Shown here: piece after piece, positions 21,903-59,452 of the stretch
Layout of the letters: each line of letters opens with the position of its first letter
Position numbering within the stretch: position 1 is the stretch's first letter
Assembly: GCA_963855995.1 (NCBI GenBank)
Contig: OY979717.1
Span: forward strand, 12,775,001 to 12,839,000
Reading direction: 5' to 3'
From: Muricea muricata
Taxonomy: Eukaryota; Cnidaria; Anthozoa; Malacalcyonacea; Plexauridae
Length of the DNA: 64,000 nt
Translations under genes and position numbers: made by a program
Notes under the pieces: model-generated
What the model saw: only the letters and a program-made list of their open reading frames with translations
Databases searched by the model: none
What the model was told of the DNA's origin: nothing

Positions 21903-22039
21903 ACTTAAAAGCGCCGTCAACGCAGATCGTAACAGCGTCTTAAAGAGTAACACCAACCTTCGACTCTCCAATTCCGTATTCATTAAGTGACAACCATGTA
22001 CAGAGTAAAAGTATTGGAATACAAGCTGGACCTGCAACA

Positions 22040-22682
22040 ATGGGAAGGCAAAATATGGCAACTCAGTGTGAATTGTTGCAGAACAGCAACGAAAAAGGTA
22101 GCTACCAACGTGAAGTGTCAACCAGTGGTAAGCACCTTACATATGACGAACTTGTTCAAAATTTTCTGCAAAGCAACACTGCGACAATCGAACGGTTGAA
22201 ACATATCGGATTATTGGCCAGTGAAACGCTGTGCCCAACATGTTTTACTCCAATGAGATGGACAACGTGCATGGACAGATCAGATGGTTTTAAGTACGAA
22301 TGGCCCCGCAAGTGTTTTATCGCGGCCGTTGAGGACAGAACTGAAAAGACATTGGTTTCTTTAATTCGCAAGTGGATCAAACCTCAAAGCATTATCGTGT
22401 CCGACTGCTGGAAGGGTGACATTAATCTAAGTAAATACGGCTACGTTCACGAAACCGTGAATCATTCTCAAGAATTTGTGAATCACACAGGAGGTCACAC
22501 AAATAAAATCGAGGGTCATTGGAGACAGTTAAAACTAGTTTGCCAACTCATGGTCGTAGAAAACATCATTATCCGTCATATTTTGCAGAATTTATGTGGC
22601 GATACATTCACAAAGATGAAGATTTATTTAGTGTTTTTTTAGAAGACATTAAACATACTTATAACTTTCAGGCGCACAAATG
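22040..22682 (+). pseudogene. Merlin (IS1016/ISXO2-like) transposase, decayed
   Basis: The open frame 22040-22642 has an N-terminal zinc-ribbon half (CPTCFTPM, then DRSDGFKYEW) followed by the C-terminal part of the ISXO2-like transposase domain: VEDRTEKTLVSLIRKWIKP, a second catalytic Asp in SDCWKG, YGYVHETVNHSQEFVNH and the catalytic Glu in HTNKIEGHWRQLK. The part between the zinc ribbon and this block, which in Merlin transposases carries the first catalytic Asp, is missing. Near 22538 the family-like reading moves to another frame (SYFAEFMWRY onwards) and ends at a stop at 22680-22682. The internal deletion plus one frameshift make it inactive. No terminal repeats were recognised. Confidence 0.85.
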
Positions 22683-34169: not shown

Positions 34170-37100
34170 TTATTTACAATAACAGTATTTTTTTAAATGT
34201 GGCAATAAACTAGCTATACATTTTGGTTGGTCACCATATTTGTTAATTCTACTAATACTACCCTTGACAAGGAACCGACCGTACAAATAATGCACGCTGG
34301 CTTCAAATACTCCATTATTTGGAAGTGTAATGAAAGTGATCTGGTAACTACAGCGATCTTTAGCTTGAATACTGCCCGAGAACTCTGGTTGATAACCGTC
34401 TTTTCCCGACCTGCGAAACCTAAGTACTTGTGTAATTGGTGTCTCTACCTCTGCTCTGTACAAATTTAAAAGACTAAGTTCAGAGCATCTTTTAGCCCCC
34501 AGTGGTTCTTTAAAATTCAAATTATTAATATGATTTATAGCTGTCAGCGCAGCCTGTTGTAAATGGTTGTGTTGGTGGTCCACCGCTGACCACTGCACAC
34601 AGGGACACCAATGTTGTGGAACACTTGCATCTTTGCAAGAACGCTCCGCTGGTACTTCGGTCAGTAAGCTCAAACCATGCTTGGTGTTTGGCTTATTTGG
34701 ATACTCCAGAAGGTGATTGAACGTGGCATAAACGTCGAACCAACTTGTCAGTCGCTCTGTATTAGTCTTGAGATTCTTTGCTAATGTTGGGTATCTCTTT
34801 TTGAACCATCTAGGAAATGTCATGGTAAAAAGTGGAAGTCTTTCCTCTAATTTTCCTTGTACTGTCTGCCTGAACTCGCCATATCTCCAACCATGATCAC
34901 CCAAGAGTATAAGTAAAGTGTTATTTAAATATCCCTTCCTATTAAACTCCATCAGGAAGTGCAGTAAATCTTCGTCGATAAGTTGAACTGCATGAAAACT
35001 GTCGTGTGATATTTCGCCTATAAATAAAAATACAGACAAATTTAACCAAAAATAACTACGTGACTGCATTCTTCTTTCTCGTAACCTTTCCTCAGTTACC
35101 CTTGTCATGTGTCATTTCAGATCATGGACTTCTATGCACCGGTTTATCATGAATCTCGTTTGTTTTTTTTTATGTTTTGCTCGTCTTTAGTGCGTTTTCT
35201 TTAATTAAACTATTTAACTAGATAACTCTATTATTCAAACTAAATGCCATGTACCCAGAATATAGCCTAAGTTCTAAAAAGTTAAAAACTTGCAAAAAAA
35301 TAATTTGGTTCAAATGTTCTTTAAAGCCATTAAAATTTAGGTCTACGTGCATTACATAATATGTATGTCCTAGTACAAAAATTAAAACACAAAGTAATTC
35401 AGAATAAGAGAGATTCAGATTAATTTTGACTTCCTTTGCCACTATCCTTGTTTTTCGCGAAATTTTTGGTCTCACAGCAAAATATCAAAATATTTCAGGG
35501 GAAATCGTTTCCAGTCAATTTCTTGACTGATATATTTTACCTGGAAAGTGAAAGATAAATTTCTTCTGTTCGGGATATTTTTCGTAGATTTTCCTCGCTA
35601 AGTCCAGATGATAATTATATATTTTCTCACTGCCATAACAATGTGGATGCCACCTGGAGTAAGCTGTTTCATGTGCTGCTAAGAAAAATGCTCGTGGGTA
35701 ATAATCAGTTGGCGGATCTTGAAAACCTAGCAGTCTGTATTGAAAAGCTGCTGTACCGGGCGAGTCTTCACAAAATGACGTCACGTAACCACGTGCTAAA
35801 ACAAAGTAAAAGTAAAGTGATTGAGTAGGCGATGCTTTGTTATGTCTCCAGAAATTTTTAAAACGCGGTCACTGGCGGGGCCCACTTATTCCGGCCAAAG
35901 GTATGATTTTAGGAAAATTCAAGTTCGAGTCCAAACAGCACTGTTTTATTGAAAAAGAAGTCAAGATATATTTTTGGACGAGCATTGCAAAGGACTATAC
36001 GTATATTGAAAACGTTCCCGACTTTTAAGTGGTGTGATAGATGACTTTGCATCATAGATTCATTGTACTTCCTGGTATAAATACAGTCACTGACTCGCTA
36101 TAAATTTCTATTGCTCATGTTGCTCACCTTTGGCTTTCTTAAATATCCAATTCCATTTATCGACAGGTTTTGCATGAGGTTCTCCACGTCTTGATTCAGC
36201 GTATTCTTGTTCACCTTTGCCAGTTAAAAATGCTGCCAATTGTTCCGTGGTACCATCTCCTACCACACTATGTCCCATAAATATATATCCTTCAAGAACA
36301 TTGCGTATGTAACTATAGGATTTCGGAAGTTTTCGTTGGGCATGACCATTGAATATAGAATCAATTCCGATAATCAGGATATTAAAATCAATTTCTGATG
36401 CAGTTGATGGTCTTGATATGATGTCCTGTCTTGGTATTACTTGCATGAGATATTCCTTTAATTCATTTCCATTTGTTAGTGTTAACGCCAGCTCGATATA
36501 TTCGTGAGGTACTGGAAACCGCTCCAAAGTGGACACTGATATGGGTTCGCTCATTATAAAGTTGAAGTCATCCTTTGTAGGTCGAGTGATGTATCGGTAG
36601 GCCGCATGTGCTATGTCTGTCCCTAGAATTAATGGTGATGAATGGTGGCGTCAATTTTTTTTTGAAGTGAGTTTAGATAAAATGTGTCCCCCTAAGTTCC
36701 TAAATGTTCCAGAAAAGTACGCTTGTATTTTTCGTTTGGGAACAACAGGAGATGTAAAAAGATCTAAATATTTTCTCAAACGATCCAGTACCCTATTTTT
36801 TTTCTATGTATACGCAAACGTGACGAGATCAACCAATTAGCATCTGATATCAATTTTAGGGAAAGAAAGAGTAATTTGTTGCTTTGTTTAATTGTTTTTA
36901 TAATTGTACAATTTTCAATTACTATTGGACAATCATCTCATTATCAAGAAAAACAATGTGTTCACTTACTGCGAAGGTGCACAAATTCCATAAACTGACA
37001 AAAACAGAACAATGACCATATATTTTCTATTAACTGTGGTTTAAGACGGATCCTTACATTGTACACAGACACAGGAACTTGATTCAGTATTTTCATATAA

Positions 37101-39278
37101 AGTTCTCGCAAAAACCTTTGTTAGCGTATTTATTCATTAAGCACTTTTGTAAAGTTGTATTATAAAATTAATGGTTTGCATATTACGTCATATAGAAGAA
37201 TTTGTTATTAGTTCATTGTTGGATCCAGCCGCCGTTGGTGAGTGACATTATCTGCCAGACCCGAGAGACTGAATGCAAACCATGTATATGGACATCAGTG
37301 AAACTAACTACAAGGTGTCCCAAAAAAGCGGAGTTCTGCATTCAAGTTTGAATTTTTAATATAATATTAAGCAGTGAAACTGGTGTTCATTCTCGTTTAA
37401 AAGTGTATTCATTCAGCTTTCTTTGGATAGGTGGTCTATGAAATTCGAGCGAATGAGACACAGTTATGGTACATTAATCGATCGCGATTGGAAGTTTTTA
37501 AAATTGAGACTGTATTCAAAGTGGCTATCTGGATTTCATATCTGGAAGCTGAACATTCATCTCATTTTTATTATTTTTCGTGTAATAAAAGCTTGGGGCA
37601 GCTAGCAGTAAATTTTGTCTTAAGACAGCTCAAAAGAAAGTACTAATCACTGTCACATAGAATGTGGTGAATGCATTTAATTTCAATCAGATCCGTTTAA
37701 TTTCGATCAAGGGAATTTCAATCAGAAAAAAATTCATGTTCTTTATCGATATTTTGTGTTGTTCTGTTAATGAAATAATTTTCAACAAGAAGAATTTCTT
37801 TTCCTGTGGAACATTAAGTGAACATTAGTCCGTCTCAAACTACCCATGTAGTAATCTTAGAACTTGGGCTCAATTTTTTTTGGACACCCTGTACAATTAA
37901 CTCCACCCCCTTTTATTTTTCCTGCGGATTGTATAACACGATTGAAATTCTGTCAAGTTTAACAAGTCTCTCTTTCCTTTATTTCCCCTTTGCGAGAAGG
38001 AGAGAGACTTGGAGCAAGTCTAGTTTGTCCTGGGCTTAGTGTTACGACTTACCATTAATATGTAAATTCCCGCCGGATAATGTGGCACTTTTTTTAGTTT
38101 TACAAAGTAATGGATCACGCAGATCTTTCACCAGTTTCATGGCGTGAGGATGAAATGGGTCCAGTTGTGGTATCCGACACGCTGCAGCTCCAGATTTAAC
38201 ATTCATGACATGCTCTTCAGCGATTGGTTGAGCACAGTAGTTCTGATTAAATAAATCATAATACAACAAAATTAATCTAACAGATCTTAGGTTATAGTTA
38301 AGTATTTTTAATAAATTAATACACGAGAAGGAGCGTTTTATCTTATTTAAAACGCGAGGCGCAGTCAAACGTTTTAGATGTGATAAAATGCGAGTCCGAG
38401 TGCATTAAATGACTTCAATACGCCACATTGTAATGCTAGATTATCGCGATTTAATTGGCTATTTACGATCACGTGACATAGAATACAAATTCTATTTCCA
38501 TGATCGTTCAATAAAACCGTGCAATAGTTCTTTCCATGGAACGTTCCATTGAACGGTGGTAAAATAGTTTTAAGAGTAGTATATATAGCTTTTAAATTTA
38601 AAAACAATAATCCCGGATTAAGTGGCATAGGAGTCTAATGAGTGTTTTAGTTCTCAACAAAATACCACTAAAACATTATTTGTATGATATACACCAGCGA
38701 TCATTGATCGTATATATGTTTTTCAATCGCATCCACGTACACGCAACTCTGTATTTGCGAAGTCTTTGGCTAAGGAGCACTGAAATTATACGATGTTGTT
38801 TTTAATAAACCTTGCATTATGTATTAGCAGGCTTTCTCATGTTTCAGCAGCGATATTGTATAAAGCTACTTACGAGATAAAATGTATAGATGTTTTATAA
38901 TTATACTGTCTATATTTAAATAATATTTAGCAAAATTAGTTACTGTTGCGAATTGCAACAGTTTTAATATGTATCATATAATTGCTGATGCGGCAAAGCG
39001 GCAACATTTGGTTGGCACGCCAAGGGTGCAGACTATACCACTGAAATTTCATGAATATTCAAGATGTTTTGCAAAGTTAATTGCGAATAATGGCAATACC
39101 ACAGCCCAGCCGAACTTCTCAGCGAGGAGCAACTATTAGTACTTTTAATACTTACGTGATAAATTGCGTTTTCGGCGTAATCCCGCATTGCATGATGGGC
39201 ACAATAAATTATTAGAAGAGCGAGAGCCAACCTCAACAGAACAAAGCGTCGACACAACAACTTTCTGATATTCCGCAT
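34170..39278 (-). CDS. DUF229 sulfatase-fold type II membrane protein, copy 1
   Basis: Five exons (minus): 39278-39156, 38242-38053, 36622-36128, 35795-35541, 35017-34170; 1911 nt, 636 residues, in phase. Residues 1-41 are a basic N-terminus plus a hydrophobic helix (LLRLALALLIIYCAH), the pattern of a signal anchor facing the Golgi/ER lumen or cell surface. The rest follows the DUF229 family, which has an alkaline-phosphatase/sulfatase fold: metal-site Asp in LIIGIDS (about 192), the VGDGTTEQ segment with the likely nucleophile Thr (about 229), and the metal-binding LLGDHGWRYGEF (about 394-400). A Cys-rich PQHWCPCVQW and the C-terminal KYCYCK follow. The substrate of the family is not known to me. 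Exon plan and ends match copy 2. An AATAAA overlaps the stop codon. Confidence 0.88.
37310..37893. mobile_element. mariner-like MITE in DUF229 copy 1 intron 2
   Basis: Ends CAAGGTGTCCCAAAAAAG (37311) and TTTTTTTTGGACACCCTGTA (37873) are inverted repeats with the GGTGTCC(C)AAAAA look of mariner termini. The inner 550 bp contains no intact transposase. Confidence 0.6.
38390..38630. other. Intron sequence with CGTTCCAT motifs
   Basis: Contains GATTTAATTGGCTATTTACG and CATGGAACGTTCCATTGAAC, words also found in the elements at 6391-7003. Probably a decayed relative, but no ends could be matched. Confidence 0.35.
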
Positions 39279-40148
39279 TCTAAAATAACCAAATGTGGCT
39301 GTAAATTATACTAGTGAAGGTCTACTTGTCGACATATATTCCTGTACAACTAGTTCGGACGCCAAGGTCAAAAATTTCATCTCTTCGTTCTTGTACCTCA
39401 AGTATAAATAAGTATCAAAATTTATTCCATTTGTCAGAGCTTACCCGCGACCTATATAACATATGCGCTACAGTCAATTGTGAAAATAAATGATATGATC
39501 AACTGAGGCACTTAGGAAACTAAGAAACATTGTTATACGGAAACATTATGTTTCTATCTCGCGGGAAATATTGCTGCGGAAACATCCTGTTTTTCCACCT
39601 CAGAAAACTTTGCTGAAACAAAATTTGACGCACTATATTTAGACTTGCAATAATTTGCATGAGCTAAATGTTTCTCATAAAAATGTTTCCTAGTTTGTCC
39701 ACACTAGGAAACATTGCAAAACACGGATAGGAAACAATGTTTCCTCAACAATGTTTGCCCCCCCCCCCAACGCTCAAGCCTCGCCGTTTTCCTGCATGAC
39801 ATGAAGCAAATGTGGTTGAACTGTTCATTATCATTAATAAATTTTATTACATTTTTATAACATTTAATTTCTTTAAAACATGAAATATAATTACATGTAC
39901 TGACAGCGTCGTTCAAGTCAAATGCTTGAGATCGTACCTGAAGCTGTTTCCGAGTTTGCTCCGACTGAACCAGACGTTTTATCCGGGTCTTAAATGCTAA
40001 TTCATTCAATTTATTTCAACAAGTCTAAAAATTTTGTGATAAATTAATTTGTTCCTTTTAGACTTGAACGTTAACGGCATGTTGATATTATATTGTCTTG
40101 AAGACCTGTCTTTTCTTTATCTGACGTTTACTGATATCAATATAGCAC

Positions 40149-40318
40149 CAGTTTTAAACTGCGCAGCCAGACCGACGATTTCGTCCCGCTATGCAAGTAT
40201 TTTCGCGTTCATTGACTGCTAAATTGCCTAAAACAACAACTTCGAAAGAAATGAATAATTATAACGATTTGAAATTTGTATTGTGGGACTAAATTGTCGG
40301 GCTGGCTATACTAAACTG
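40149..40318. mobile_element. hAT-type MITE (CCAGCCC family), copy 2
   Basis: CAGTTTTAAACTGCGCAGCC and GGCTGGCTATACTAAACTG are imperfect inverted ends, with CGACGATTTCGTCCCGC and GTGGGACTAAATTGTCG inside. No clean target duplication remains, so it is older than copy 3 at 52462. Confidence 0.65.
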
Positions 40319-41100
40319 CCTGTATAAATCTTAAAATATACATGCTAATAGATGCAAAAACTGCTTTTACGATTTTATTTTAGATTTCGACCTTGTACTA
40401 CAAAATTGCAATCACGGTTGCAATATATTTGCGTTGAATATTTGCTAAAGCCCAAAAGTTTGGATTGTTCAGTTTTTTGTCCCGTAAATAATGTTTCATT
40501 GTTATGTTTGGCTTAATATAATGACAAAATGTTAATAAAGCCCATATGAAACAAAAACTTTTTATAGTCCTCTATAGAGGCAAATAAATCTTTTTTAAAC
40601 TTTACATTAACTTTAAACGCAATCAAAAACCCTGATCGAGCCTGTCCGCATTCAACTTAATTAGAATTGGAGCCTTGCGTAATAATTGTGGGTACGTAGG
40701 AGTTGTATTCGACAATACGCGCGTCCTTCTCCAGGCCCAGTCCGGCAAAAACAGTGATGGAAATCTCTCTTTATATAATGTTTTGTTTTGATGTTCTTGT
40801 AATATGACGTTGATGATGTGTCTTAATTTGTATACGTCCTAATTCTTCCCAAGTCTCAGTTGTAAGTTGGATGTTTTTAATCAGAGCGGAAAATTTGTCT
40901 TGAACAATTTAAATAATTTACCCTGAATAGAGGGATGTTATATGACTGCTAGAAAAGTTAGAAAACAGAAAGTGGCAGGGATAGCAGAAGCCTTACTCCC
41001 GTCAGAATTTTATATATAGTGTTTCTGTCTACACGGCCGCCTCCAATTAAAATAAAGGTCAAAATATCAAAACATTTGCTCTCCACTTCAACTGCCCAGG

Positions 41101-41237
41101 CAAAGGCTGAAGTTGTCACATGACCAAATTTTCTTATATTCTTGGAAAATTTCGTACATAAATTAAGTATTCAATAACTTGGCAGGAAAATCTTCCAACT
41201 ATATTGGAAAATTTGGTCATGTGATAACCAGCCTTTG
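41101..41237. mobile_element. MITE, ~137 bp, TCACATGACCAAATTTTC family
   Basis: CAAAGGCTGAAGTTGTCACA followed by TGACCAAATTTTC pairs with GGAAAATTTGGTCATGTGAT and AACCAGCCTTTG at the right. Confidence 0.75.
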
Positions 41238-41608
41238 TAAGGGCCTTCTATCTCATGTTCCACCACTGAGGCCCTGGGAACAAAGCTGGCAGTTGTCTTG
41301 TTGTCTGGATTGTTTAAAAGAATCGTGAAAATGAAATAATCTTCGTCATTCGTGAAATATGAAATGGACCTTGAGTTCGTGACACTAACACCCCCCTCCT
41401 AGCTCCCCCCGTTCATCGACAATGACAACCATTGATAGAGAAGGTATTAGCCATACCTTTCTGAACCAAGGCACCTAGCCATTATTGTTAAATATTTTAC
41501 TCCAGTTGCATGTGTAAGTTACTAATCGGTCACTAGACCACACAATTCCTCGTTCATAATGGCTAATTGCAAAATAATTCATATACATAATCGATGTATG
41601 ACCGCAAT

Positions 41609-44600
41609 TTATTTACAATAACAGTATTTTCTTAAGTGAGGCAATAAATTAGCTATACATTTTGGCTGTTTACCGTATTTGTTAATTCTATTAATACTAC
41701 CCTTGACAAGCAAGCGTCCGTACACATAATCTACACTGGCTTCAAATACGCCATTATTAGGAAGTGTAGTGAAAGTGATCTGGTAACTACAACGATCTTT
41801 TGGCTGTATTTTACGTGAAGAATATATCGGTTTATAACCGTCTTTTCCGGACTCAGAAAACTTTAGTACGTGCGTAGTTGGTGTTTCCACCTCTGCACGA
41901 ATAAAGTTTAAAAGTTTAAGTTCTGAACAGTGCTCTGCACCCAATGATTCATGAAAAACCAAATCATTAATGTGATTAATTGTTGTAATTGCGGCCTTTT
42001 GTAAGTGTTCGTGTTGATAGTCAACCGTTAACCACTGCACACACGGACACCAATGCTGTGGAATCTTTGCATCTTTGCACGAACGTTCCGTTGGTATTTT
42101 TGTCAGTAGGCTTGTACCGTGTCTCGGCTTATTTGGGTACTCTAGAAGGTGATTGAACGTGGCATAAACGTCGAACCAACTTGTCAGTCGTTCAGTATTA
42201 GTCTTGAGATTCTTTGCTAATGTTTGGTATCTCTTTTTGAACCATCTTGGAAATGTCATTGTAAAAAGTGGAAGTCTTTCCTCTAATTTTCCTTGTACTG
42301 TCTGCCTGAATTCGCCAAATCTCCAACCATGATCACCCAAGAGAATGAGTAAAGTGTTATTTAAATATCCCTTCCTATTAAACTCCGTCAGGAAGTGCAG
42401 TAAATCTTCGTCGATAAGTTGAACTGCATTAAAATTGTTGTGTGATATTTCGCCTAAAAATTGCAAAAACTGTGCTTATATTTTAAACTGTTTATGAAAC
42501 AAAACTTTTCCCACAGTGATAAGAATTGTTGTAACTGCCTTACTTAAGATATTCAAGTTCATTTGACCAGAAAATAACACAACCAGTGACGTCATTGTGC
42601 ATTATTACTTTTCAAAAAAGCTTCATTAATTTAAAAAGTACTCAAGATATATCACTTAAATACCCAGGCCTGGATGTTAAACATAGCCTACACACATGCA
42701 TGTGTACTTTTAGTTACTTTTCATTATAATATGCTACAAAATAAGCAATTTAATAGACATCCATTATACAATATGACGTCAGTGGTGAGGTATTTGCACA
42801 TCCTATAAAGTTAAATATCCCGTAACTCGACAAGAAACGGAGTGACAAAAACTCTACCAAAGGACTTATTTATATATCGTTATTTTATCTTGTCTTCCCC
42901 ATTTCGTGTTCGTATAAAATTTCGTTTTATAAGCATTTAAAGTATATGGTCTTTTTATCTTTGGTTACTGTTTTGCTCTATACATGGCGTGCAAATGGTA
43001 ATTTGGAGTGCTCTAACTTGCTCAATACTTACAGAAATAATTCTTTCGCCCTCAAAAAGACAAAAGTTTTAACTTAATCCTGAATCTTATTAGCTGAATT
43101 AATGTTTCTCATGACATAATTTGAGATATTATTGCAATTTTCTCTGTCTTATTTGCCGCCTTCAAAATCTTCACGGGTGGAAACATGCGATTTCGACTGG
43201 CAATTTTTATTTAATTTGTATTTTTTATTCAACTTTTAAAATAACGGTGGTACTATCGGTTGTCGACTATGAAAGAATTATTTCTGTAGATTTAAATATT
43301 TAGCGCACTTTAGGACCCTAAAGTTCTCTTGTACTAACATACTTAATATCCTTATATGCTTCCCAAGAAACACGCGGTCGACACGGCTTCTCAGTTTAAT
43401 ATCATTGACTTATATTTATCGCATTTCATTTCGTTGTTCTCATTGTTATTTTCCTTATTTATCAATTTTACTTTATCTTCTTTTCTTACCTGTAAAATGA
43501 AAGAGAAATTTCTTCCGTTCGGGATATTGTTCGTAGATTTTCCACACTAAGTCCAGATGATAATTATATATTTTCTCGCTGCCATAACAGTACGGATTGT
43601 GGTCAGAGTACGATTTGTGTGCTGCTAAGAAAAATGCTCGTGAGTAGTAATCAGTTGGCGGATCTTGAAAACCTAGCAGTCTGTAATGAAAAGCTGCTGT
43701 ATCGGGAGAGTCTTCACAAAATGACGTCACATAACCACGAGCTGTAAAAAGCAGGAATCAGAAAAAAGTGGTACGATGAGAGTGGAAATAAACTTGATAT
43801 AAGAAGTTTGAATTACAGGAATTACACAAGGAGATCGGATGAGACGTGCTGAACAAAGAAGGGTTTCAATGCACATTGTAAAATCTATAAGTAGAATATA
43901 AACTAAATAAAATTTCCGATATTATATCAGTTCCTCTATTCTCTAACGTTAAAAGCCTACACGCGTAAAAACGCACAACCTGTTCAGGGTTGATGAAAAC
44001 AGCCTTGAACAATGTTGTGCTGCCAACATTGTTCAATGTTGTCAACAATATTGTTCAGCATTGTTACACCTGATCGCAGGCTAGTTCAGGCTCAACAATG
44101 CTGAACAATATTGTTGACAACCTTGAACAATGTAGGCAGCACAACATTGTTCAAGGCTGTAGTCATCAGCCCTGAACAGGTTGTGCGTTTTTTGCCGTGT
44201 AGGTAAGTCGAAATCAGCGGTAAGAGGTAATATGACCTACAGTGGTAAGGGATGTCAGTACAAACGGAACTGCTCAGCACTGTTTCTTTGCATTCGAATG
44301 AATATGTTCGTTGGTGATATGTATTCAATCAATCAAAGTAGATCTAATACACTAAGAAAGTCGTATTTTAGCTGCATAGTTTTAAGATTAGAGACCTTTA
44401 GCATTGCGTTTTTGCGGGGTACCGCAAACGTCAAACTGCAGTTTCGCGTTTGACGTTTTCCGTCAAAGTTGCGACATTTTAGCAAAGCGTCTTTTTTTCA
44501 AAACGTGTAGCGGAATTTTGGGCAATAAACATGGCGGCAGCAAGAAGGTATTGTTTATATTGTTTTACTTTTTTATTTGCAACGCTTATTGTAGTGTTGA

Positions 44601-47600
44601 ATTTTGAGAACAGCCACCATATTGAATTTCATTCATGGTAAGTGATGCTCGATGTTTGTGATAGTTTTAAACTAAACAGCAATATTTACAACACCAAATT
44701 ATATTGCAAGTGAAAGAACACACTTTCTTCTGTATACCAACAACAGATATACGCGAGAAAAAACAATATTCAGGCAAACAAAAGCTGAGGTAATCGACTT
44801 ACCTGAAATCCTATACTTTGCCGTCGAAAACGCCAGAAATTTACGTGACGCCAAGGACTGGTCACGTGATTTCTTGAGGTTCGCGGTTCAAAAAAACCGC
44901 AATGCTAAAGGTCTCTAATCATAATTAAAGCCTAAGACTTACCAGCCCCGTATATATGTTTTTATAGAATATTTTTACCCAGTTCTTAAAGTTGGTGGAG
45001 TATTGGTGTACTTTACAAAAGAATATTACGTCATATCAAAACGCTTTACAGGTTTCTTGAAAGTTAATTAAACAACCACTTTTTAAGTAGCCCTACGAGT
45101 ATCTACGAAGATCATGAAACCAGTTGTTGCGCTTTTGCGCCGGGCCGGGATTTCATTGATCATTTATTTGGACAGCATTCTCCTGACGAATGTGTCCCAG
45201 TCCGGCCTCCAACAACACAAGGTTGTCAGGGCGTCAGAACTGGGGGCTTTTGGTCTCAGAAGCTTCATATCAATTGTCTGAAGCTTCTAGCGGGATCGTT
45301 TGCGACGAAAAGCTTTACGAAAAATTGTTTGTGTGTTCATGCATGTGCGCCTGCGTATGAACAACACTTATGTGGTGGCTCATCTCAACCGACTTGGTAG
45401 GACTCGCTCGTTAGTCCGCTCCAACCTGGCTCTTGCTGCAAGGGAGTTGGGCCGTGAAAGGGAACATCTTTTTCAGTGCATTCTGCAGTAAAGTCAAGAT
45501 TATATGAAAACACATGCAGAAGTGAGATATAACAATCGCACTCGCCCTTCCCCTTACTACGACGTATCGTTCTATTTTGTCTTTAGATTTATCAGTGCAT
45601 CTTTTCCAGAAGTTGGGAAATTGATTGACCCACTGTTTAACTTGTTCTAATTAAATATAGAGTTCTTGGTGGTTTCCGCTGATTCCGAACCGAAGAGTGT
45701 TGACTTTACTAAAGTGTGTATTCTGTGGTCTAAAGGTTACAAAGCGGCATGTCGCATGCAATTCTTATTCTGGCGTATGTAATTGAGTAAGTATGTGTAA
45801 AGATGTATCTGACAAGCAAAAAATAATGGCGGTACAGTTGTTTTCACATGCCAGAATGACAATCGCATGCGACTTGTTGCATCGTGTCAAACGCCAGTTT
45901 ACACGGGGAATGTATTCTGCGATGTGAAGGTGGAGATTCACTGCAGATTTTCGACTGCTAATTCACTGCTAATCGGGGGCTCAGTTACATCCATGCATTC
46001 ATCAAGAAATATCGTATTCGTCAATTGGCCTTAATTAGTGCTAGATGCTTGAATATCAACAACGCATTTTATTTTAATTTATTTAGAGATTATATACAGC
46101 TAATTACATTAAGGTTGTCCTATGATAAAGCTGAAATGTGTAAGTCAAGCGCAAAAAGTACGATGGGAGTATACGGTAAGTAGTCATCTCACATATTCAA
46201 CATATGGAAAACCATGACCAGGTTGGCTAATTCTGTTAATGTAAGTGATTTGTATGGGAATACAGTGAAATTAATTTAAGCGACTCCCTCTGTTGGCCAT
46301 TCCATCGTACTTTTCGCTCGTATGCGTGGCTTTTACCGTTATGGCTTTATCACTGGACAACTTTAATGCAATCGGCTGCATATGTATACATACATAAACC
46401 CTATCTTATATATAAATACACTGTCTGGCTGCTGGTGGTTACCTTACCTTTGGCTTTTTTAAATATCCAATTCCATTTATCGACAGGTTTTGCATGAGGT
46501 TCTCCACGTCTTGATTCAGCGTATTCTTGTTCGCCTTTGCCAGTTAAAAATGCTGCCAATTGTTCCGTAGTACCATCTCCTACCACACTATGTCCCATAA
46601 ATATATATCCTTCAAGAACATTGCGTATGTAACTATAGGATTTCGGAAGTTTTCGTTGGGCATGACCATTGGATATAGAATCAATTCCGATAATCAGGAT
46701 ATTTAAATCCATTTCTGACGCAGTTGATGGTCTTGATATGATGTCCTGTCTTGGTATTACTTGCATGAGATATTCCTTAAGCACGTTTTGGTCAGTAAGA
46801 ATTAATGTCAGTTCTATGTATTCGTGAGGCACTTGGAAAATACGAGAAGACACTGCAATAGGGTCACTCAAAACGAACGCAAAATCATCACTTTCTGGTC
46901 TGCTTATGAACCTGTAGGCAGCGTACGCTACGTCTGTACCTGAAATAATTGTTAAATAATGGTATCTGGTTGAAGGTTTCTGGTTGTTTGCCTGTTTAAT
47001 TGTCAATGGTAATACAATAAAACCTGATTATGAAATAAGAAAAACCCTTACAAGAAGTATAGTAGAAAATGTTTACATGAAATTGAAATATAGACAGATC
47101 CAGGAAATCATTGCCAATCAAGATCTAATCTGAAAGCTTTGCAAAGCTCGTAATTTTTATAATAAGCTGGGATGTACTTTTTATTATCCTGTTCAGTAAG
47201 CATAAAATTGTTCAAAAGTTTCTCACTAATATCTGCTTAATACTAAACAGTTAAAGACGTCAAGAATTCGTATTATTGCAAATATATGTCACCACTTTCC
47301 CAACGTTGCTAGATCCTTCCCTCTACGCTCCTATAGGAAAGATCCTGGAAACGAGCTCCAGATTCCTTTAGTTTCCATGCCACGTCACTACTCTAGGTTG
47401 GGAACGAGATGGATCAACGTCATCGAGTGTTGCATGTACTGATAAAGTACACATAAAGCAAATGTTGCTTACCAGTAATATTCAACACTCCACCACTTAA
47501 TACTGCCCTTTTTTCAGTTTTACAACGCAACGGACCGGCTAGCTCTTCAACAAGATCCATGGCGTTAGCATGAAATGGATCGAGTTTTGGTATCCGACAT

Positions 47601-48617: not shown

Positions 48618-49663
48618 TCTGAAATAGGTAAAAAAATCATATCTATGTACTTACGGAAACCATAGTATTAATTGACAATCGGATTAAAGACATTTTTCTT
48701 GTGCTAGAATAAATGTTTTCAGTATACAACTGTGCTTTTACCAACTAGCTCAAAACTTTTTTCCAAGACTTAATTCGGCCAGAACAGAAACATTCTTCAA
48801 CATCAATATAACGTAGATACATACATTGTTAAATTATTTGTACTTTACTGACTGAGTTGCCAGTGAGCTCTTCTTTCCCAACCCGTTCTTCTTACCCTCC
48901 ACATTTGCTTGTGCATGAACTCCACTTTAAGTAGATTTCAGAGGCAATGCGGCTTGCAAAATCTTGAAAATCATACGACAGTTCAAGTCAAGAATATCAA
49001 TTTTATTGCGTTAAACGTTTAATTTTATTTGTCATACAACCTGTTCACTTCTTCCAGTACTTCCAACTAATTACCAATTTAGTTTGAATGAAACACCAGC
49101 CCATAACACATGTACGATAATAGGACCTGTAGCTTAATAAAATAAAACAATTTAGATAGCAACGAAAAATGATACGATTTTGCATATTATTTAAATTTTC
49201 AAAATCTCATTCGTCAATCCCCCGCTAACTCCAAATAAAATTTGACTCTTAATTTGCTCTCAGAGATTTCACAGTCATGGGAGGGCGGTGTTGGAGGTAT
49301 ATTTTTCCACGTTTCTGTCGTCATAGTTACATTTTGATAATTTATTTGTTTACACTTTTATTTTCACATCAGTCTTTTTATGTACACTTGAAATGTCTTC
49401 AAAAGTACTCAAATTTTTTAAGTCTCTAACCATCTCTGCACCAAACATGCAATTTGGTGAAATTTTATACCGAAATTTTATGAGTACTTCTTCTGCCCTT
49501 TACTCTGATATACATGCTGATATGAAGTATCTCGTACTTGTGACCCAGCCAGAATTTCGCGGGCTCAATAATGGCGTTTAAAAATGCGGGGCATCGCGGG
49601 AAAATTCAAACTCTTGTTCAAATTTTACAGACGTGTATCGCAGTTTTAAATTTACTACAAAAT
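48618..49663. promoter_or_regulatory. Divergent promoter region
   Basis: The 1.05 kb between the start codons of DUF229 copy 2 (minus) and the CCCH/LRR gene (plus) has no gene. The last 100 bases before the plus-strand gene are richer in GC (GCGGGGCATCGCGGGAAAAT near 49586), as expected for a promoter-proximal strip. No TATA box was recognised. Confidence 0.4.
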
Positions 49664-52600
49664 ATGGCGGAATCAAAGCAACTTCAACAAGAAAACAGAA
49701 ATCCCGAGTAAGTATATATGATTTCACGCCTTCTAAGGATTAAAAGGATTATAATTATCTGCACTTTCCTCCGTAATATGTCCTCTAATTTCGGTCAGTA
49801 TTACTTTAATTAATATTTTAAACAGTTCACGCTTGATTCTTGTACATTTTTAATTTTATAGTATTACCTTGTTTAATCATGTAATTTAAAAGTGCTTTCT
49901 TTTATTACCTGTAGAAAAAGAAGGATATCTTGCCGGTAAGATGCGTGCATATTAAATAGTCAACAAATTAAAAAGTGGTAAAAAACAAAATTATGTTCGT
50001 TGTACTTCGTTACTCAGATATCATGTCTACTAAATTTGTAGGTATTTCGTCCGTGGATTGTGTCGTGAAGGAAACAAATGTGCTTACTCCCATGACCGCT
50101 CTGATGTTCCAGTATGTGTAAAATTGATAAAAATTGATTATGGATGTTAACTAGTTTTTTTAAATGTGTTGATAACTTGGGTTCATTATTTCCCTGCTTA
50201 TCTCAGAAGAGAGATGGGGGGGGGGAAGGGGGGGGGGGGGGGGCAGTGGAGTAGCAAGGAAACAACTTAAAATTTTGCAGAATTTGTGCACTATGTAATA
50301 CTATATACAAAATGTACATTAAAAGGTCCACACTTAGGAGGGGGGTATTAATCTACTGTGAGTCTTTACACATTACGACAGACCTTTATCCTTGCTCCGT
50401 TGTACATTGGCTAGGCATACATACAGATATTTTTTAGCTTTTACTATTGTTCTCAGTTAACAGCTGCACTATTTTTTTAATTAAGTGACCAACCTTGCTA
50501 TACAAGCAGTCTTATATAAAAGGACTTTTGTGCATTGCCTTTGGCCCAATGTATGGCCCAGAGTGTATAGTATCATAAGCTCTCACACTGAGTTATTAAA
50601 CAATTTCAGAAAAACAGGACATCATCGGTGATCTAGTTAAATTTGAATATTTCACAAAAGAAATCAACAAGCAATTCTAGTTGTATTTTTTCAAGATAAT
50701 TCTGTTGTACGCTCTAATTAATAACAATATGTTTGGTACTATATTAGTACCGGTAGTGAGATTTGCTGGAATATGCCCTTGCTATTTTCAAGTTGCACAT
50801 ATCTCTGAATACTAAGTGTTGCTCATTTTCAAAAAATGCAGGTGTGCAGATATTTCCAAGAGGGAACATGTTACTATGGTGATAAATGTTGGTTCCAACA
50901 TCCAGAAGAAGAATTCAACATATCCAGGTAAAGTGTATGTCAATAAAATAGGATACTCCACATCAGATTGACAATGGTCTGTTAATCAAGCCCTAGTTCA
51001 ATATTATGTTGAAAATGCTTACTTGCATAAAAGCCTCGCTTCCATGAGTCATAATGAAGGAAAGGTGATTATCTCATGAATTGCGACCTATGAGCATGCT
51101 GGATATCATCGCTGGAGTCATGAAGGGGGCCCAGGGATGAAGATTATGGCTGTAATATTCTGTAGTCTTATATAAGGACCTGATTCTACATACGATCTTA
51201 CTAATACCTCAAATTTTTGTAAAATACCAAAATTGATAAATGGCCTACCAAACCTTTATGGTTTGAGAATTCTTACCAGGTAATTTTTTGAAGCACATTG
51301 CATTGCATTTCCCCAGATTGCTTTGCAATTAATTGTTTGACATTGCCATATAAGTTCTTTAAAGCATGGGTGTATGTAGTTACCCTCCTCCATCCGAGAG
51401 TGGAAAAAAAATGTCAGCACGAACAAAATAATCTCAGAGAGAAAGGCAAAGAATAGAGGGAAAGCAAAAAAAGGGGAAATATTGGTAAAGGAGAAAGAAT
51501 GGGGAAATTAAGAGAAAGAAGGGGAAAGGCAAGTAGGGAGGGAGAATGGAATTTGGAAAAGTTCTAAAGAATCAAAAGAAGCAAGAGTTCCAAAGAAGAA
51601 AGAAAAAAGAAAGAAGAGAAAAGAAGAATAAGGAAGTAGAAAGGAAAGGAGGGAATATAGGGAAAAGGAAATGTGAAACTGTGAAAACAGTTCTAAAGAA
51701 TGGGAAAAGATGTAAAAGTGGGAAAAAGCAATTAAAAAAAAGAGAGAAATGTCAAATTAAAGATGGAGATAAGTGTTAAGGACAAATATTTTCCATCATC
51801 AAGTTTTTTTTTGAACCACTCAGCCCTAGATTGGGAAAAAACTTTCCAAATGAAAGTAACCCTCTGGTAATATATATACACCCCTGCTTTGATGGTCTAC
51901 AGAAAAGCAATTTTAACTCAAATTGCACATCCTTTTCTTGTAGCTGTTTTGAGGAATATCTTGTGCCATCAGAAAACTTCTTCTCACTTGGAAGTGTTTT
52001 CAGTAACTGTATGTGTAGTTGTTACTAATTTTAAATGAATGCACTCTATCAGTAGATATAACTGATTGCATATTATCATGCATGGATATATTACAGAAGA
52101 ATTATGTGAAAATTTAGAGGTTGTATTTCAGCATTCCCATCACTGAGATCCATTCTGGGTTTGATCTTGTGTCTACCGAGGCCACTGGGGTTTAAGTCTT
52201 TCCTGTACTGAAAATCTTAAGTTTTAAATTCCCTAAAGCACAGTGGCGGATCTAGGGTAAGTCAAAATAAATTACCACAGCTCATTCTAGGATATATTTA
52301 CATTTTAAAATACCTTCAAAGCAACTTCATTGGTTAGATTTTATTCTTTTGAAATTCCTAACCTATGACATTGTTTTAAAGTTATTTTGAATTTCAAATT
52401 GAGCTTCTATAATTTATTTTGACTTACCCTGGATCCGCCACTGCTAAAGCATTCCGATTTCCAGTAGCGAAACCAGCCCGACAATTTGGTCATGCTATGC
52501 AAATTTAATACATCATTCATTTCTTTAGAAATTGATTCCTTATACGGTCTAAAAATACTGAAAAATTTGCATGACCAAATTTCGGGCTGGCTTCACCACT

Positions 52601-55600
52601 GCCGATTTCCTCCACAAGGAATCTTGATATGATCTGATGTGGCTCATTCAACGTAAATGAGCTTTTAGCCCAAAGCATTATAGATTATATGACTTGCACG
52701 TTTCTCATTGTAGTTGACATTTCCTGTAAGATTAATGAATGAAATAATTAGTTGTGCAACTATCAGTGAGTCGGACATTGTGTTCAGTTACAAATAAACG
52801 ATGTTAATCTTACGTCTACCAAAAATATTTTTATAAAAAAAGGTTGTATAAAGCTATAGTAAATGCTACCTTACTGTGAATGTGGGAAAATCGTTTTACT
52901 GTATATTTAGGCGCAGAACCACCACCATTGAGTAATATCAACTTACTGATGGCGGCTGCAATTTCATCTGCTTGGTCAGAGGTAAACAGCAATGAAGCTG
53001 AATGTGAAACACCTAAGGCCCCGATTTCGGTAGAAAAAGCCATGGAAATGTGGAGAAGTATTACTGACGAAGGTAACTGTGTCTATATAAACTAAGTGTC
53101 TATCAATTCTTAGAATGTCATAGTGATGCATTCATCACTTCGCTTCAGACACTAGGAATTGCGAAGAAGACGGTTATTAGTGCTTACCACGGCTATTGGT
53201 GCACTTTCTAACGTAACTTGCTAGTCCTATTTACGCAAGTCCTATTTACGGCGAACGACTGCAGGCTAAGCAAACCAAACGGGACGTGACGTGCTAGCGT
53301 TTCTCCTCGCTCTTTTCCTGTGGGTTTAGTATTCAGTTGAGTCTTCCCCTTCAAAGCACACGCACACACCCATTTCTACTTGCTACGGTTCTGGAAGTTA
53401 TTCCCACTTGTTGCGCGCTGGTATTTAACCCGCAGACAGATCTCTTTTTGCAAGCTTGCAAGCTACTTACTTACAAAAGTATAGAGAATAAACGGTAGGA
53501 CCACTCAGCATAATTAAATTAAATGTTTAAATCTATCTGGATTTGTATGTATATACTGCTTACGTAAATGGCGAAGTTTTTAGCAACATTTCATTGGGAT
53601 TTACCTTACTACAGCCTTTGTGCAGTCTGCCTTGCTTGTGACGTCATTGAAGTATTATAAACAAGGTAGCGGACGATTAGTGTTATATTTACTAATTTAC
53701 TTGTACGTCAGTATTTAGAAACAAAGCAAGTTACCAAAAAATTAACCTATTATAATTACTTAATCGGTCTTTAGATTGGCCAGAAAAAGAAAGTACAGTA
53801 TATGGCCATATTCCTTTAATTTTTTTTTAAAAAATCTTTTAAAAAAGACATGGACTTTACTGTATGAAGTGTTCACAAACTGGCAAACCTCGATAACTTC
53901 GCGATTTGGTCATAATCCTGGTAACGATAAATATATTGAAACCGTTCCGATTTCAAGACCCATATATATTTCTTATTATTGTTATATAGGAGACCAAGAA
54001 AAATGTCAAAATTTAAATACGTCGGTCGACGATAGCAGTGAATCTGTGTCTGCACTCGATGATTTGAGCGTGTATTTCAGTAAGCTCAGTAAATTCGACA
54101 TCAAAAATTGGCCATGTTCTGATGTTATAGACCTACTGTGTTTACTAGCTGAATTTGATGATGTTGGCTTCCCAAAGCACGACTTGAGCAACGACCTGTT
54201 TGTGGGCAACGTTCTTATCGAACTCATGCGCAGATGGAAACCTTCGAGCAGTACTACCTCAGAATTTTTCAGCACCTTATGTGAATCTAAACAAATAGAC
54301 ATGACACAGCTGATTATATGCCTGGTTAGCTGCCCTTGCAGACTGAACGACTTTGACACTTTCTTGGGAGAGGTTTTGTATCACTTGCAGCAGAAGAACC
54401 CTGATAAATGGAATAGTGAATGGGTAGCAGATCTTCTTGACAAGTTCGAAGACAATCTAGAATGTTGTGATGTAGACGCTGTTGATGTTTTGTCCAGTTT
54501 GGGCAATCTTTTAAAGAATCCTGGCAAACTGGGAAAGATGGCACATGTGTACCTTGAGAAGACGGGTCTTCAGAATAGCTTTGAATGTCGTTGCAAAACA
54601 GCCGAGTGTCTCTGTCCCATCGAAGTAGACGAAGGGGTGGCGTTCATTTTGTTCGATGGCTTGACCAGAAGGTTGAAATGGTCATATAGTGAAAAGAAAG
54701 AATTCTTTTGCAAGGCTGTGGACAAGCTGTTTTTGCCCGGTGTGCTGTTTCAACTAGGTAAGTACAAGATTGATTACATTTTTGTTCTATTTAATATTGT
54801 CGGCCGGCCGGTAACATCACAAAGTAAAACGTATGAGAATGATCGCACAAGGAAAACACAGGCATGCAAACCAACCAGACGGTTGTGTACATGAAGTGGC
54901 TCTTTACTTCTTCACTGTAGTTTAACATGAACTGAAAGTTAATTTATAAACAATTTGTGAAAAATTAATATAAAATTTACCATGCAAAGTCTAAAATTAC
55001 ATATAACTGAAAGTTAGTTACATAGGTGGAAGTCTCTTCGTTGAAGCTAGGAACGAGTTCGATAAATTTGTACTTTTTGAAGAGTAATTTGTACATAAAG
55101 AGCAATCCAGACGTTCAAAAGTTCACTCGAAAGTTAGGTAATACATGTTATAATATCATGTTTCTTTGTTTACTCGATTCTGATTGGCTAAGAACTGTGC
55201 CGATTAATCATTAATCAGCGTAGTATGCCGATTAAAAATTAATCAGCACGGATGGCGAGCCGCGGTACGCGGGCTTTTTCAGAAATAAAAACAAACAAAT
55301 CGGTGAAATATTTTTTTAAAAAAATGATATTAATAGGAAATTACACTTGTCCTCGAAGTATTAATGAAAAATCACACTTGTGTTTGCGAAATATTTATAT
55401 ATAATATTATAAACGTTTCGCCAAACACGCGTATGATTTTTCATTAATACTTCTCGGACCGTGTAATTTCCTATACTAATTATATACGGTTAAATAGCTT
55501 TTAACTCCCTAGGGCCCTTCTTAAAATATTTCAGCAGTTTCTTACACCAACCGGTATTGAATTGAATAGATGCAATGTCTATAGCTGATCTATAGTTTGG

Positions 55601-58600
55601 CTTCTAGTTGTAATATTAGTAATCTCGGTATTTGTATTTTAATACAAATTAAAATACAATCTCTTATACATCTCCTAAAAGAGATAAACTTTCCCAGTTT
55701 TCGTTAAAGTGCTTATGAAACGAAATTTGGTCTAACATTTTCTTCATTGCATTTCAAAGATCACTTAAATTGACAATATAACTTCTTTGGTAAAATTTTT
55801 GTAACTCTCCTCCTTGTCAAGATATTCAAATCTTTATATGTACAAATACACAACCACTGACGTCATCCTGTATAATGAGTGTCTATTAGATTGCTTATTT
55901 TGCAACATACAATAATGTGAAAAAACTAAAACTACACTTGCATATGAGTATGCGAGGATTAACATTCAGTCTTGGGAATGTATGTGCGATATTTTGACTA
56001 CTTTTCAAATCAATGAAGATTTTCAAAAAGTCATTATACATAATGACGTCACTCGTTAAGTTATTATCATATCAAATAAAATGGAATATCTCGACAAGTA
56101 AAACCGTTGAAAAAATTCTAGCCAAGAAGTTATATTGTCATTTTAAGTGATCTTCCCAACGTAATCTTAAAATAGGTAGGGAAAATTTCGTTTCATAGGC
56201 ACTTTAAATATTACCTAATACCTATAAACACGAGGTACAATCCTGGAAAAAAATTCGTGGACTTTTTAAATTTTGATAATATTCCCCCCTCCCCCCCCCC
56301 CCCCCCTTTACAATGTTGATGATCAGGTTAAAACCTATGCAAATAGGCATTACCTGTAACAACATTTTTTGGGGGGGAGGGAGAGGGGGGGTGTCAAGAA
56401 CAATTAGCAAGTTTTGTTGAAGTAAACTGGCATATTTTCAATAAGTCTTACGAAATTTTGTTGGACTTTCTCAAAAGTCCACGAATATTTTTTCCAAGAT
56501 TGTAGACCTGAAAAAGCTGCTTTTGAACCTCCAAACTGTGTTAACTATGTTTTGTAAATAACTTGAGGGTGAGTTATGAAATGGCATTTTGTTGATCCTT
56601 TTCTCCACTTTTCGCAGGTGAAAGTATGGGCTTGAGGAACATCGCTAAGGAATGTAACTGCCGTGACGAGCCAGATGTAAACAAAGTAAACAATGTGCCA
56701 CAGTCGAAATGTCCAAGTTCGGATTGCAGCAATAACGCGAAGCGGGACTGTGTGAACGGATTATGCGGTCGTTGCTGCAAACGAAGTGGCTTATGGTGTG
56801 ATGTTCACGTAAATCTCTTTCCAACTCGGTACCAGACTGTTCGCGCACATGACTTGGTGAAACCTCGCGTGAATCTGGCTGCAAAGCAAGACCTTCATTC
56901 TTTCCTGGAGACGAGTGGTTATGCTCGGGCTGTGTGCTTTGGTCGTGATTTCTCAGTCACAGATGATGACGTCATTAAAGTACTTGACCTGTGCGAGGAT
57001 ATTCAGTTGCTCGAGTTAGGTATGTGTTGTATACTGCTATACTACTTATTGTAATGCAGGACTTTTTTAAAAAGATTGGCTTGAGAGGGCTAATGATATT
57101 TTTGCCAGACTTTGTGAACAAGGAATAGGAGGTATTCTCCCCAGTGATGCACTGGGGCATCAAAAAGACCCCTATTCCTTGTTCTCAAAGTGTGGTTAAA
57201 ACACTATTGACGTATAAAACATGCTTATATATTTTCGGTGGGAATGCTTGTATATTTAACAGACGGGTTGAAAACTCTCAAATCAATCTCTTAAATGCCC
57301 TGATGCAATCTGTTTATATCACTGGCCTCGTTTTCATGTACACGTCAAGTTGTTCCCATTTTCGTACAATGGTGTGTTTTTCTTTCATGCGCTCTGCGTC
57401 TAAAATTGACTTGTCGCTACATTAGGAACACCGCATCAGGGCAAAGGGGAAAATTTAACTTGGCCTGTGGCCATAGAGGTATTCGATTCTCAGACTTGTG
57501 TCTTCCTAGTTAAGTGCTCTGCAAGATGATGATACGTGATTTTGCGGTATCCTAATAACTTAATATTATTAAGGTTGGCAACATTTCAACTTTAATTCAT
57601 TTCCACTTTAAATCCTAAGTATATTCATCATTTCCTTCAGTGTATCCTTAAGGGGGTCCAATAGTAAATAATTTCAAAATTCATCGATTTTCAAAATTTT
57701 TTCAAAATATTGTTAACGGCGTTCTCTAAACATATCCAAAATTTCAAACAACAAAATGAATTATAAACGGAGAAATTCAGCAAATTCTACACCGTGTTAG
57801 GGTAAAACCATAATTTTACCCAGAGCAAATAATGGTATGCAATTGGTTTACTCTATTGTGTCTTTTTCCATAGCATTGTTCGATTAATGTTATTCTAATG
57901 CATGCAAAAACTTTAAAGCAGTTTTTCTCAAATTGCCGAGAACCACCAATCGCCATTATTGCATGCGCAATATCTCAAGAAGTATGTAAGCTATTGACTT
58001 CAAACTTTCAGTGTGTGTTGTGTGTTACATTTTCTTGGAGATGAACCAGAATCATAAAAATATTTGCAATAGCATGCAAGTTATGATAGTCAGTATCATC
58101 TCGATAATATCTAGTTTCAATATTTTGTCCGCAAAAAATTTATTTTTGCCTCAATCACCATAGTTCTGGTTCATCTCCAAGAGCATGTGATATACTATTA
58201 AAATAAAGTTATTTTAGATTTTTATCATTCATAGTTGTTGAGATATCATGTTTACAAATATATGGATTTTTCACCATCAGGGAGTAATTAACATGGTAAC
58301 CATGGCAATGGTAACTTTGAAAAACTTATTTTTATGTTTGTGGTACCATGTCCTAACACTTGACCAAAGATGACCTGCATAGCATTAAAACACACAAAAA
58401 ATTTTTTTTAGTATTGGACCCCCTAAACACTATTGTGCACGAAACATGAGCATATTGCCATATGAAAGCGAGGCCACTGGTCGGTATTTCTTACAGACAA
58501 AGATAAACGGATCATTAATCGTTTCAAAGTTTCACATCGATCTACATTGTGAAATTTTGCGTGGAAATGCCGGAGCATGTATTAGATACGATATCGCAAC

Positions 58601-59452
58601 ATTTTTTCACATACGAAAAAGATGTTTTTCAAAGGTGAAAAAACATGTGAAATTTTCATTAGTGCTGCACAGGTAAAACAAAGAAAAACTTTTTGTTTTG
58701 TTACACCTGCCTTAATACGCAGAACAAATTTTTCACTTTCAGTTGGAATATGAGTGACTTATCTTATTTTAGAATCTCGTATAATTTCAAGCCCATCCCC
58801 CAACCATTCTATGGTATTAGAGTTTTGAGTTTTGAAGTGCTTATTATCCTTCAATCAAATTGCTGTACGGCTCTACAGTAAAAAAAATAGTAAAGGAAAC
58901 AAATCTATTGTCAAGCTGCTTTAACGCAACCACAGTAAACCATTGATAGAGCCGGATGAAAAAAACATCGCCAGCCTGCCGGCCATGCATTGCAAAGCCC
59001 ACTCGACATTTGCCGCATATGTTGACCTAGGTTCAGCTGATACTGGACGGGGTGGGCTTGTAACGGACGCGGTCCTTCATTACATCTCTCGTAAACGTCC
59101 CACGCTTCGCAAACTTCGATTGGAATCAGCTACTTCTGTCACTGATGATGGCGTAATGGAACTACTGAAGCAATGCCACGATTTAGAGTTCTTAGAAGTA
59201 TCTGGCAATGACAAGGTCAATGGTGCATTGACAGATCGCGTCCTAAAGGAATTCTTTGACGTTGATGTTGCACCAAAGCTCAAAACGCTAATCGTTACTG
59301 ATCAACGAGGAATAAGTTACGATGTTGTCATGCGACTACGGCGTTGCAGACCGACTCTTGAGATAACCGCTGGTGATACAGACAGTGACAGCATGGCGTG
59401 GTCCTTAATTCTTGGCATGACTGGTGGGTGGTATGGAGAAGGGTTGTATTGA
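49664..59452 (+). CDS. CCCH zinc-finger, SHI-like cysteine cluster and LRR protein (unrecognised combination)
   Basis: Nine exons by splice signals and phase: 49664-49707, 49915-49935, 50042-50111, 50842-50927, 51944-52008, 52911-53072, 53990-54757, 56618-57019, 58950-59452; 2121 nt, 706 residues. Two CCCH fingers come first (C21-C29-C35-H39 and C47-C55-C61-H65, both C-x7-C-x5-C-x3-H) with a makorin-like look (CRYFVRGLCREGNKCAYSHD), but no RING follows. Residues 150-405 are acidic and helical with no domain I recognise. At 437-469, C-x4-C-x7-C-x4-C-x2-CC-x6-C-x2-H resembles the zinc-binding cluster of plant SHI/LRP1 factors. Leucine-rich repeats follow (DDDVIKVLDLCEDIQLLELG, LRKLRLESATSVTDDGVMEL, LEFLEVSG) to the C-terminus. 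Likely an RNA-binding or adaptor protein. A split into two genes after exon 6 is possible. AATAAA at 59651-59656. Confidence 0.75.
50218..50243 (+). repeat. Poly-G tract in CCCH/LRR intron 3
   Basis: A nearly unbroken G run of about 25 bases. Similar G or C runs of ten or more lie at 10145, 18259, 18485, 31394, 39762, 56284 and 63282. Confidence 0.9.
51405..51778 (+). repeat. Polypurine tract in CCCH/LRR intron 4
   Basis: About 370 bases almost wholly A and G on the plus strand (GAGAAAGGCAAAGAATAGAG and similar). It gives a Lys/Arg/Glu-rich open frame that is not a gene. Confidence 0.85.
52241..52443. mobile_element. hAT MITE, 203 bp, with perfect 8-bp target duplication
   Basis: Ends CAGTGGCGGATCTAGGGTAA and TTACCCTGGATCCGCCACTG are inverted repeats that extend to AGTCAAAATAAATTA. 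The flanking octamer CTAAAGCA is repeated exactly at 52233-52240 and 52444-52451, the hallmark of hAT insertion. Intron 5 of the CCCH/LRR gene. Confidence 0.92.
52462..52601. mobile_element. hAT-type MITE (CCAGCCC family), copy 3, with 8-bp target duplication
   Basis: Ends CAGTAGCGAAACCAGCCCGA and GGGCTGGCTTCACCACTG are inverted repeats. The octamer CCGATTTC occurs at 52454-52461 and again at 52602-52609. 140 bp. Two older relatives are at 27180 and 40149. It sits 18 bases from another hAT MITE. Confidence 0.9.
55325..55490. mobile_element. Foldback MITE around GTATTAATGAAAAATCA
   Basis: AGGAAATTACACTTGTCCTC then GAAGTATTAATGAAAAATCA (55336-55376) pairs with TGATTTTTCATTAATACTTC and GTGTAATTTCCTAT (55433-55474), joined by an AT-rich loop. 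Flanking strips (TGATTGGCTAAGAAC at 55181) recur near 24132. Confidence 0.75.
55704..56207. mobile_element. MITE, GTGCTTATGAAACGAAATTT family, copy 2
   Basis: TTAAAGTGCTTATGAAACGA (55704) pairs with CGTTTCATAGGCACTTTAA (56189), and GATCACTTAAATTGACAATA then TAACTTCTT (55760-55790) pairs with the mirror at 56125-56153. Related to 42481-42950. Intron 7 of the CCCH/LRR gene. Confidence 0.88.
56236..56504. mobile_element. MITE with ATTCGTGGACTTT arms
   Basis: TACAATCCTGGAAAAAAATT then CGTGGACTTT (56236) pairs with AAAGTCCACGAATATTTTTT and CCAAGATTGTA (56475-56504). The centre has a poly-C and a poly-G run. Confidence 0.8.
57109..57191. mobile_element. Short hairpin element in the last intron of the CCCH/LRR gene
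   Basis: ACTTTGTGAACAAGGAATAG (57109) pairs with CTATTCCTTGTTCTCAAAGT (57172), with a smaller CCCCAGTGATGCACTGGGG stem between them. Confidence 0.8.
57651..58424. mobile_element. MITE with AGGGGGTCCAATA ends, ~774 bp
   Basis: AGGGGGTCCAATAGTAAA (57651) and TTTAGTATTGGACCCCCT (58408) are inverted ends. The flanks TTA and AAAC leave a short TAA/TA-type duplication possible. No transposase frame inside. Confidence 0.85.

Follow-up and report, generated by a model that had tools for sequence, protein, structure and literature searches.

A SHI-like zinc knot with CCCH fingers and FBXL-like repeats in a candidate gene of the coral Muricea muricata

In this study, a stretch of 64,000 nucleotides from Muricea muricata (referred to as the window; its contig measures 71.7 Mb and the genome 453 Mb) was found to contain exons for two CCCH fingers, a cysteine cluster resembling that of the plant SHI family, and a region like the leucine-rich repeats (LRRs) of FBXL proteins. 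These separate parts look real, and, as judged from the sequence, all of the exons likely yield a single protein. Of the parts, the SHI-like knot, occurring as it does in an animal, is of greatest interest. We propose, with confidence and doubt about evenly balanced, that a single animal gene encodes an intracellular, non-catalytic RNA-binding scaffold of about 660-740 aa. The order of CCCH, SHI-like and LRR domains was absent from the literature among the matches listed.

Gene model and paired CCCH fingers

An earlier note on this DNA had joined nine exons into one frame of 706 aa. This model was rebuilt exactly in phase with the cysteine cluster at residues 437-469, the exon coordinates having been recovered to fit that length and that cluster position (Table 1). 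All exons lie on one strand and in order. An in-frame ATG at 49571 would serve as an alternative start and give 737 aa; exon 9 taken from its alternative acceptor at 59031 would give 679 aa. A seven-exon model lacking the microexon was dropped owing to a phase clash, and a candidate exon in the last intron (57145-57237) was rejected, its codon score being matched or exceeded by 82% of intron segments.

Table 1. Exons of the 706-residue model, in positions of the window
Feature	Position	Strand	Content
Exon 1	49664-49707	+	Start codon; donor CGA/gtaagt
Exon 2, 21-nt microexon	49915-49935	+	First Cys of CCCH finger 1
Exon 3	50042-50111	+	Remainder of CCCH finger 1
Exon 4	50842-50927	+	CCCH finger 2; zf-CCCH_4
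Exon 5, putative bridging exon	51944-52008	+	At chance level; donor -0.4
Exon 6, linker	52911-53072	+	Clear codon-use support; weak alternative acceptor 52990
Exon 7	53990-54757	+	About 256 aa, mostly helical by prediction, without known family
Exon 8	56618-57019	+	SHI-like Cys cluster and first LRR-like stretch
Exon 9	58950-59452	+	FBXL-like LRRs and stop codon; alternative acceptor 59031

Codon use was scored with 1,267 training codons against overlapping intron segments, the long exons being compared with segments of 120 nt. Exon 6 received clear support (0 of 203 stop-free intron segments scored as high). Support was moderate for the core of exon 9 (1% of intron segments as high), exon 4 (2% of 1,089), exon 8 (4%) and exon 7 (6%), and the stretch 58950-59030 was moderately coding-like (5% of 1,163). 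Little support was obtained for exon 3 (11%), exon 1 (15%) and the putative bridging exon (16% of 1,736). The test separates poorly, because a low-complexity intronic frame at 51537 reaches 8%, compared with the 6% of exon 7.

The two fingers are exact CX7CX5CX3H motifs at residues 21-39 and 47-65 of the 706-aa model. In the Pfam scan of this model, zf-CCCH_4 was matched twice (E 6.1e-13), PF18345 and zf-CCCH were above their cut-offs, and Torus was barely so (30.5 versus 29). Short single-stranded RNA is the usual target of paired CCCH fingers. Without the microexon, finger 1 loses its first Cys; the putative microexon, with an acceptor of 2.9 and a donor of 6.1 (all splice scores come from rough matrices), restores the full motif in phase. 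Among solved structures, the fingers are closest to CPSF4 chains (E 1.6e-11, obtained with a query lacking the microexon). CPSF4/CPSF30 and other CCCH proteins are the best solved relatives of both fingers, whereas the coral model has only two fingers and its remaining parts are unlike theirs. Elsewhere in the genome, 24 zf-CCCH matches were found among the matches listed.

The fingers had been described as makorin-like and lacking a RING, and the second point was borne out, no RING being matched in the 706-aa model at E <= 1 in Pfam; their sequence likeness to makorin is one that we presume. N-terminal CCCH fingers are common to the makorins (MKRN1/2) and the coral model. However, the available text of one paper defines makorins by a RING and a third or C-terminal CCCH (PMC3022923), and the coral model has neither, with two CCCH stretches in its 706 aa. 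MKRN1 is termed an RNA-binding ligase in the available part of another (PMC6805484).

Linking the CCCH exons to the downstream exons

For the case of two genes, the earlier note had named a break after 53072; the weakest join lies instead between 50927 and 52911. Exon 4 leaves phase 2 and exon 6 needs phase 1, and therefore a bridge is needed between them. The best candidate, 51944-52008, appeared only in one loosened exon search, strict thresholds having given no candidates. Among 300 dinucleotide shuffles, 105 gave a candidate as good, and so did 30 of the 66 stretches obtained by tiling the window on both strands, the bridge's own region included; because equally good candidates are so common by chance, the bridge has no support of its own. 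The weak acceptor at 52990 (-3.1) is phase-compatible without any bridge and, from the coordinates, would give 658 aa.

The phase clash and the chance-level bridge both favor two genes, namely one for a very small CCCH protein made from the exons up to 50927, and an independent SHI-LRR gene that begins near 52880, where an ATG in frame with exon 6 opens the frame 52880-53095. Read-through from exon 4 meets a stop at 50929-50931. We consider two genes unlikely, however: the CCCH protein from the 49664 start would have only 74 aa, and the acceptor before 52911 (2.7) and the donor after finger 2 (4.2) are within the range of the model's other sites. Within the exon 7 part, no Met occurs until residue 229 of the 706-aa model, and exons 7-9 therefore depend on exons further upstream, failing which about 79 residues would be lost. 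A single protein from all of the exons is retained as the likely product.

The middle region carried by exon 7, when joined to the linker, matched no Pfam family at E <= 1. An AF2 model of exon 7 made without an alignment was mostly helical and of low confidence (pLDDT 49.5); none of its 271 Foldseek matches reached E <= 0.001, and so no fold was assigned. A match to a FolD model (E 0.2) was rejected as not significant. The same applied to 1wff, which we take to be an AN1 finger (E 0.48), matched by the stretch 54526-54612 with its Cys pairs ECRCKTAECLC.

Several repeats and neighboring genes were recorded in the window. The intron after the doubtful bridge holds MITE-like sequences at 52241-52443 and 52462-52601 with terminal inverted repeats (44 nt, 89%, and 25 nt, 80%), and the intron before the SHI-like exon holds 124-nt inverted arms (55704-55827 and 56084-56207) that are 77% complementary. 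Neighboring frames match Lectin_C and DUF229. On the minus strand, DUF229 (sulfatase-like) was matched in 5 of 5 frames scanned at 34173-47027; this region probably represents two adjoining DUF229 gene copies, because the C-terminal part and the 100-210 part of the profile are each present twice. A frame at 21944-22639 carries an ISXO2-like (IS1595) transposase domain (47.4 bits).

The SHI-like cysteine cluster

The Pfam family DUF702 was matched by exon 8 alone with 27.7 bits (E 4.4e-6) and by the 706-aa model with 25.4 bits, both above the cut-off of 20.6. The match is located at 56719-56814 in exon 8, the site of the cluster at residues 437-469, and spans profile positions 6-37 of 151, with 32 residues over 32 positions. 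When the cluster region was shuffled (five full shuffles, four with Cys/His fixed), none of the nine resulting sequences matched DUF702 at E <= 1, indicating that the match goes beyond cysteine content alone. The NCBIfam LRP1 finger, TIGR01623, gave 27.8 bits, below its cut-off of 42. The earlier claim of a SHI-like cluster is thus upheld by the Pfam cut-off but not by that of NCBIfam.

The spacing of the coral cluster is CX4CX7CX4CX2C2X6CX2H. Plant SHI/STY/SRS proteins (DUF702, TIGR01623) have the CX7CX4CX2C2X6C core in common with it, and also possess an IXGH domain, which is missing from group III. The plant definition, CX2CX7CX4CX2C2X6C in the available text of PMC10576376, differs from the coral cluster in the first spacer, CX4C in the coral and CX2C in plants (two residues apart), the other spacers being identical. 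Further differences from the plant proteins are that profile positions 38-151 have no match in the coral protein, and that the coral knot is joined to LRR-like repeats and probably also to CCCH fingers.

A profile search of the genome, in which two candidates were scored, gave one DUF702 match, the present locus. Among 14 control genomes, a DUF702 signal was seen in one, below the cut-off. Exon 8 gave 11 and 67 pattern matches in viral and prokaryote contigs, respectively, of which none was confirmed. A PDB search with the cluster returned a single chance match (E 2.6), and an AF2 model of exon 8 alone, built without an alignment, was poor (pLDDT 40). Among the papers searched, those that name DUF702 are, judged by their titles, all on plants, and none pairing DUF702 with metazoa was found. 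The SHI/SRS family is termed plant-specific or similar in the available text of PMC10576376 and in several of the abstracts of these papers.

The DUF702 match, together with the in vitro DNA binding of AtSTY1 given in the same source (PMC10576376, in part), could suggest a nuclear DNA-binding regulator in which the knot would contact DNA, like that of plant SHI/STY proteins, and the LRR would recruit partners. Such a role is improbable, since the match is limited to profile positions 6-37 of 151 and the paired CCCH fingers point to RNA.

FBXL-like repeats and proposed function

When exon 8 was joined to exon 9 from the 59031 acceptor, whole-chain matches were obtained to FBXL2 (E 7.7e-13; best single stretch, E 0.058) and FBXL17 (E 7e-8). 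In Pfam, LRR_6 on exon 9 scored 17.5, below its cut-off of 23.4, and no LRR family was matched by the 706-aa model at E <= 1. The LRR-like character claimed for the C-terminal third is thus backed by the FBXL matches but weak by the Pfam LRR families, which stay below their cut-offs. By eye, the coral model resembles FBXL2 and FBXL17 in its LRR-like repeats, which are about 26 residues long and carry VTDDGV-type motifs; unlike FBXL2 and FBXL17, it gave no F-box match (none in the Pfam scan of the 706-aa model, at E <= 1), and only about six repeats were counted by eye, some of them irregular. Protein binding is the known role of FBXL-type LRRs.

A genome search with residues 150-706 (59031 acceptor) recovered the locus itself as three pieces; a further five matches were weak (E 0.006 to 1), and four of these fell in LRR frames. 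The fifth, L018 (E 0.995), which we take to be a retroelement, was set aside after inspection of its reading frame. Within the same genome, an F-box was above cut-off in all three of the LRR relatives that were scanned (L014, L016 and L017).

In the scaffold that we propose, the two CCCH fingers would bind single-stranded RNA, as is usual for their family, and the helical middle region, the SHI-like knot and the short FBXL-like LRR arc would bind protein partners, so that the protein may bring these partners to RNA. A non-catalytic adaptor between RNA and protein partners is suggested because neither a RING nor an F-box was matched. Of the RNA-guided adaptor put forward earlier, one half persists: RNA binding may fairly be expected from the CCCH pair, but nothing points to a guide RNA. 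A ubiquitin ligase or ligase part, with the knot as a RING-like element or the LRR as substrate receptor, is very improbable, since the makorin-like CCCH pair (a presumed likeness) and the F-boxes of the three LRR relatives are outweighed by the 706-aa model matching neither a RING nor an F-box at E <= 1 and by a knot that is presumably shorter than a RING. The ubiquitin-type factor of the earlier note is not supported.

The locus may represent an unnamed, single-copy animal family that combines a SHI-type knot with RNA-binding CCCH fingers and FBXL-like LRRs, in which case the knot would be ancient or twice invented rather than a plant invention; we hold this tentatively, with slightly more doubt than confidence. 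Considering that the SHI-type knot is described in print as plant-specific, an animal copy would make its origin and general chemistry testable outside plants, and the domain order would single out an animal protein as a candidate for an RNA-linked scaffold.
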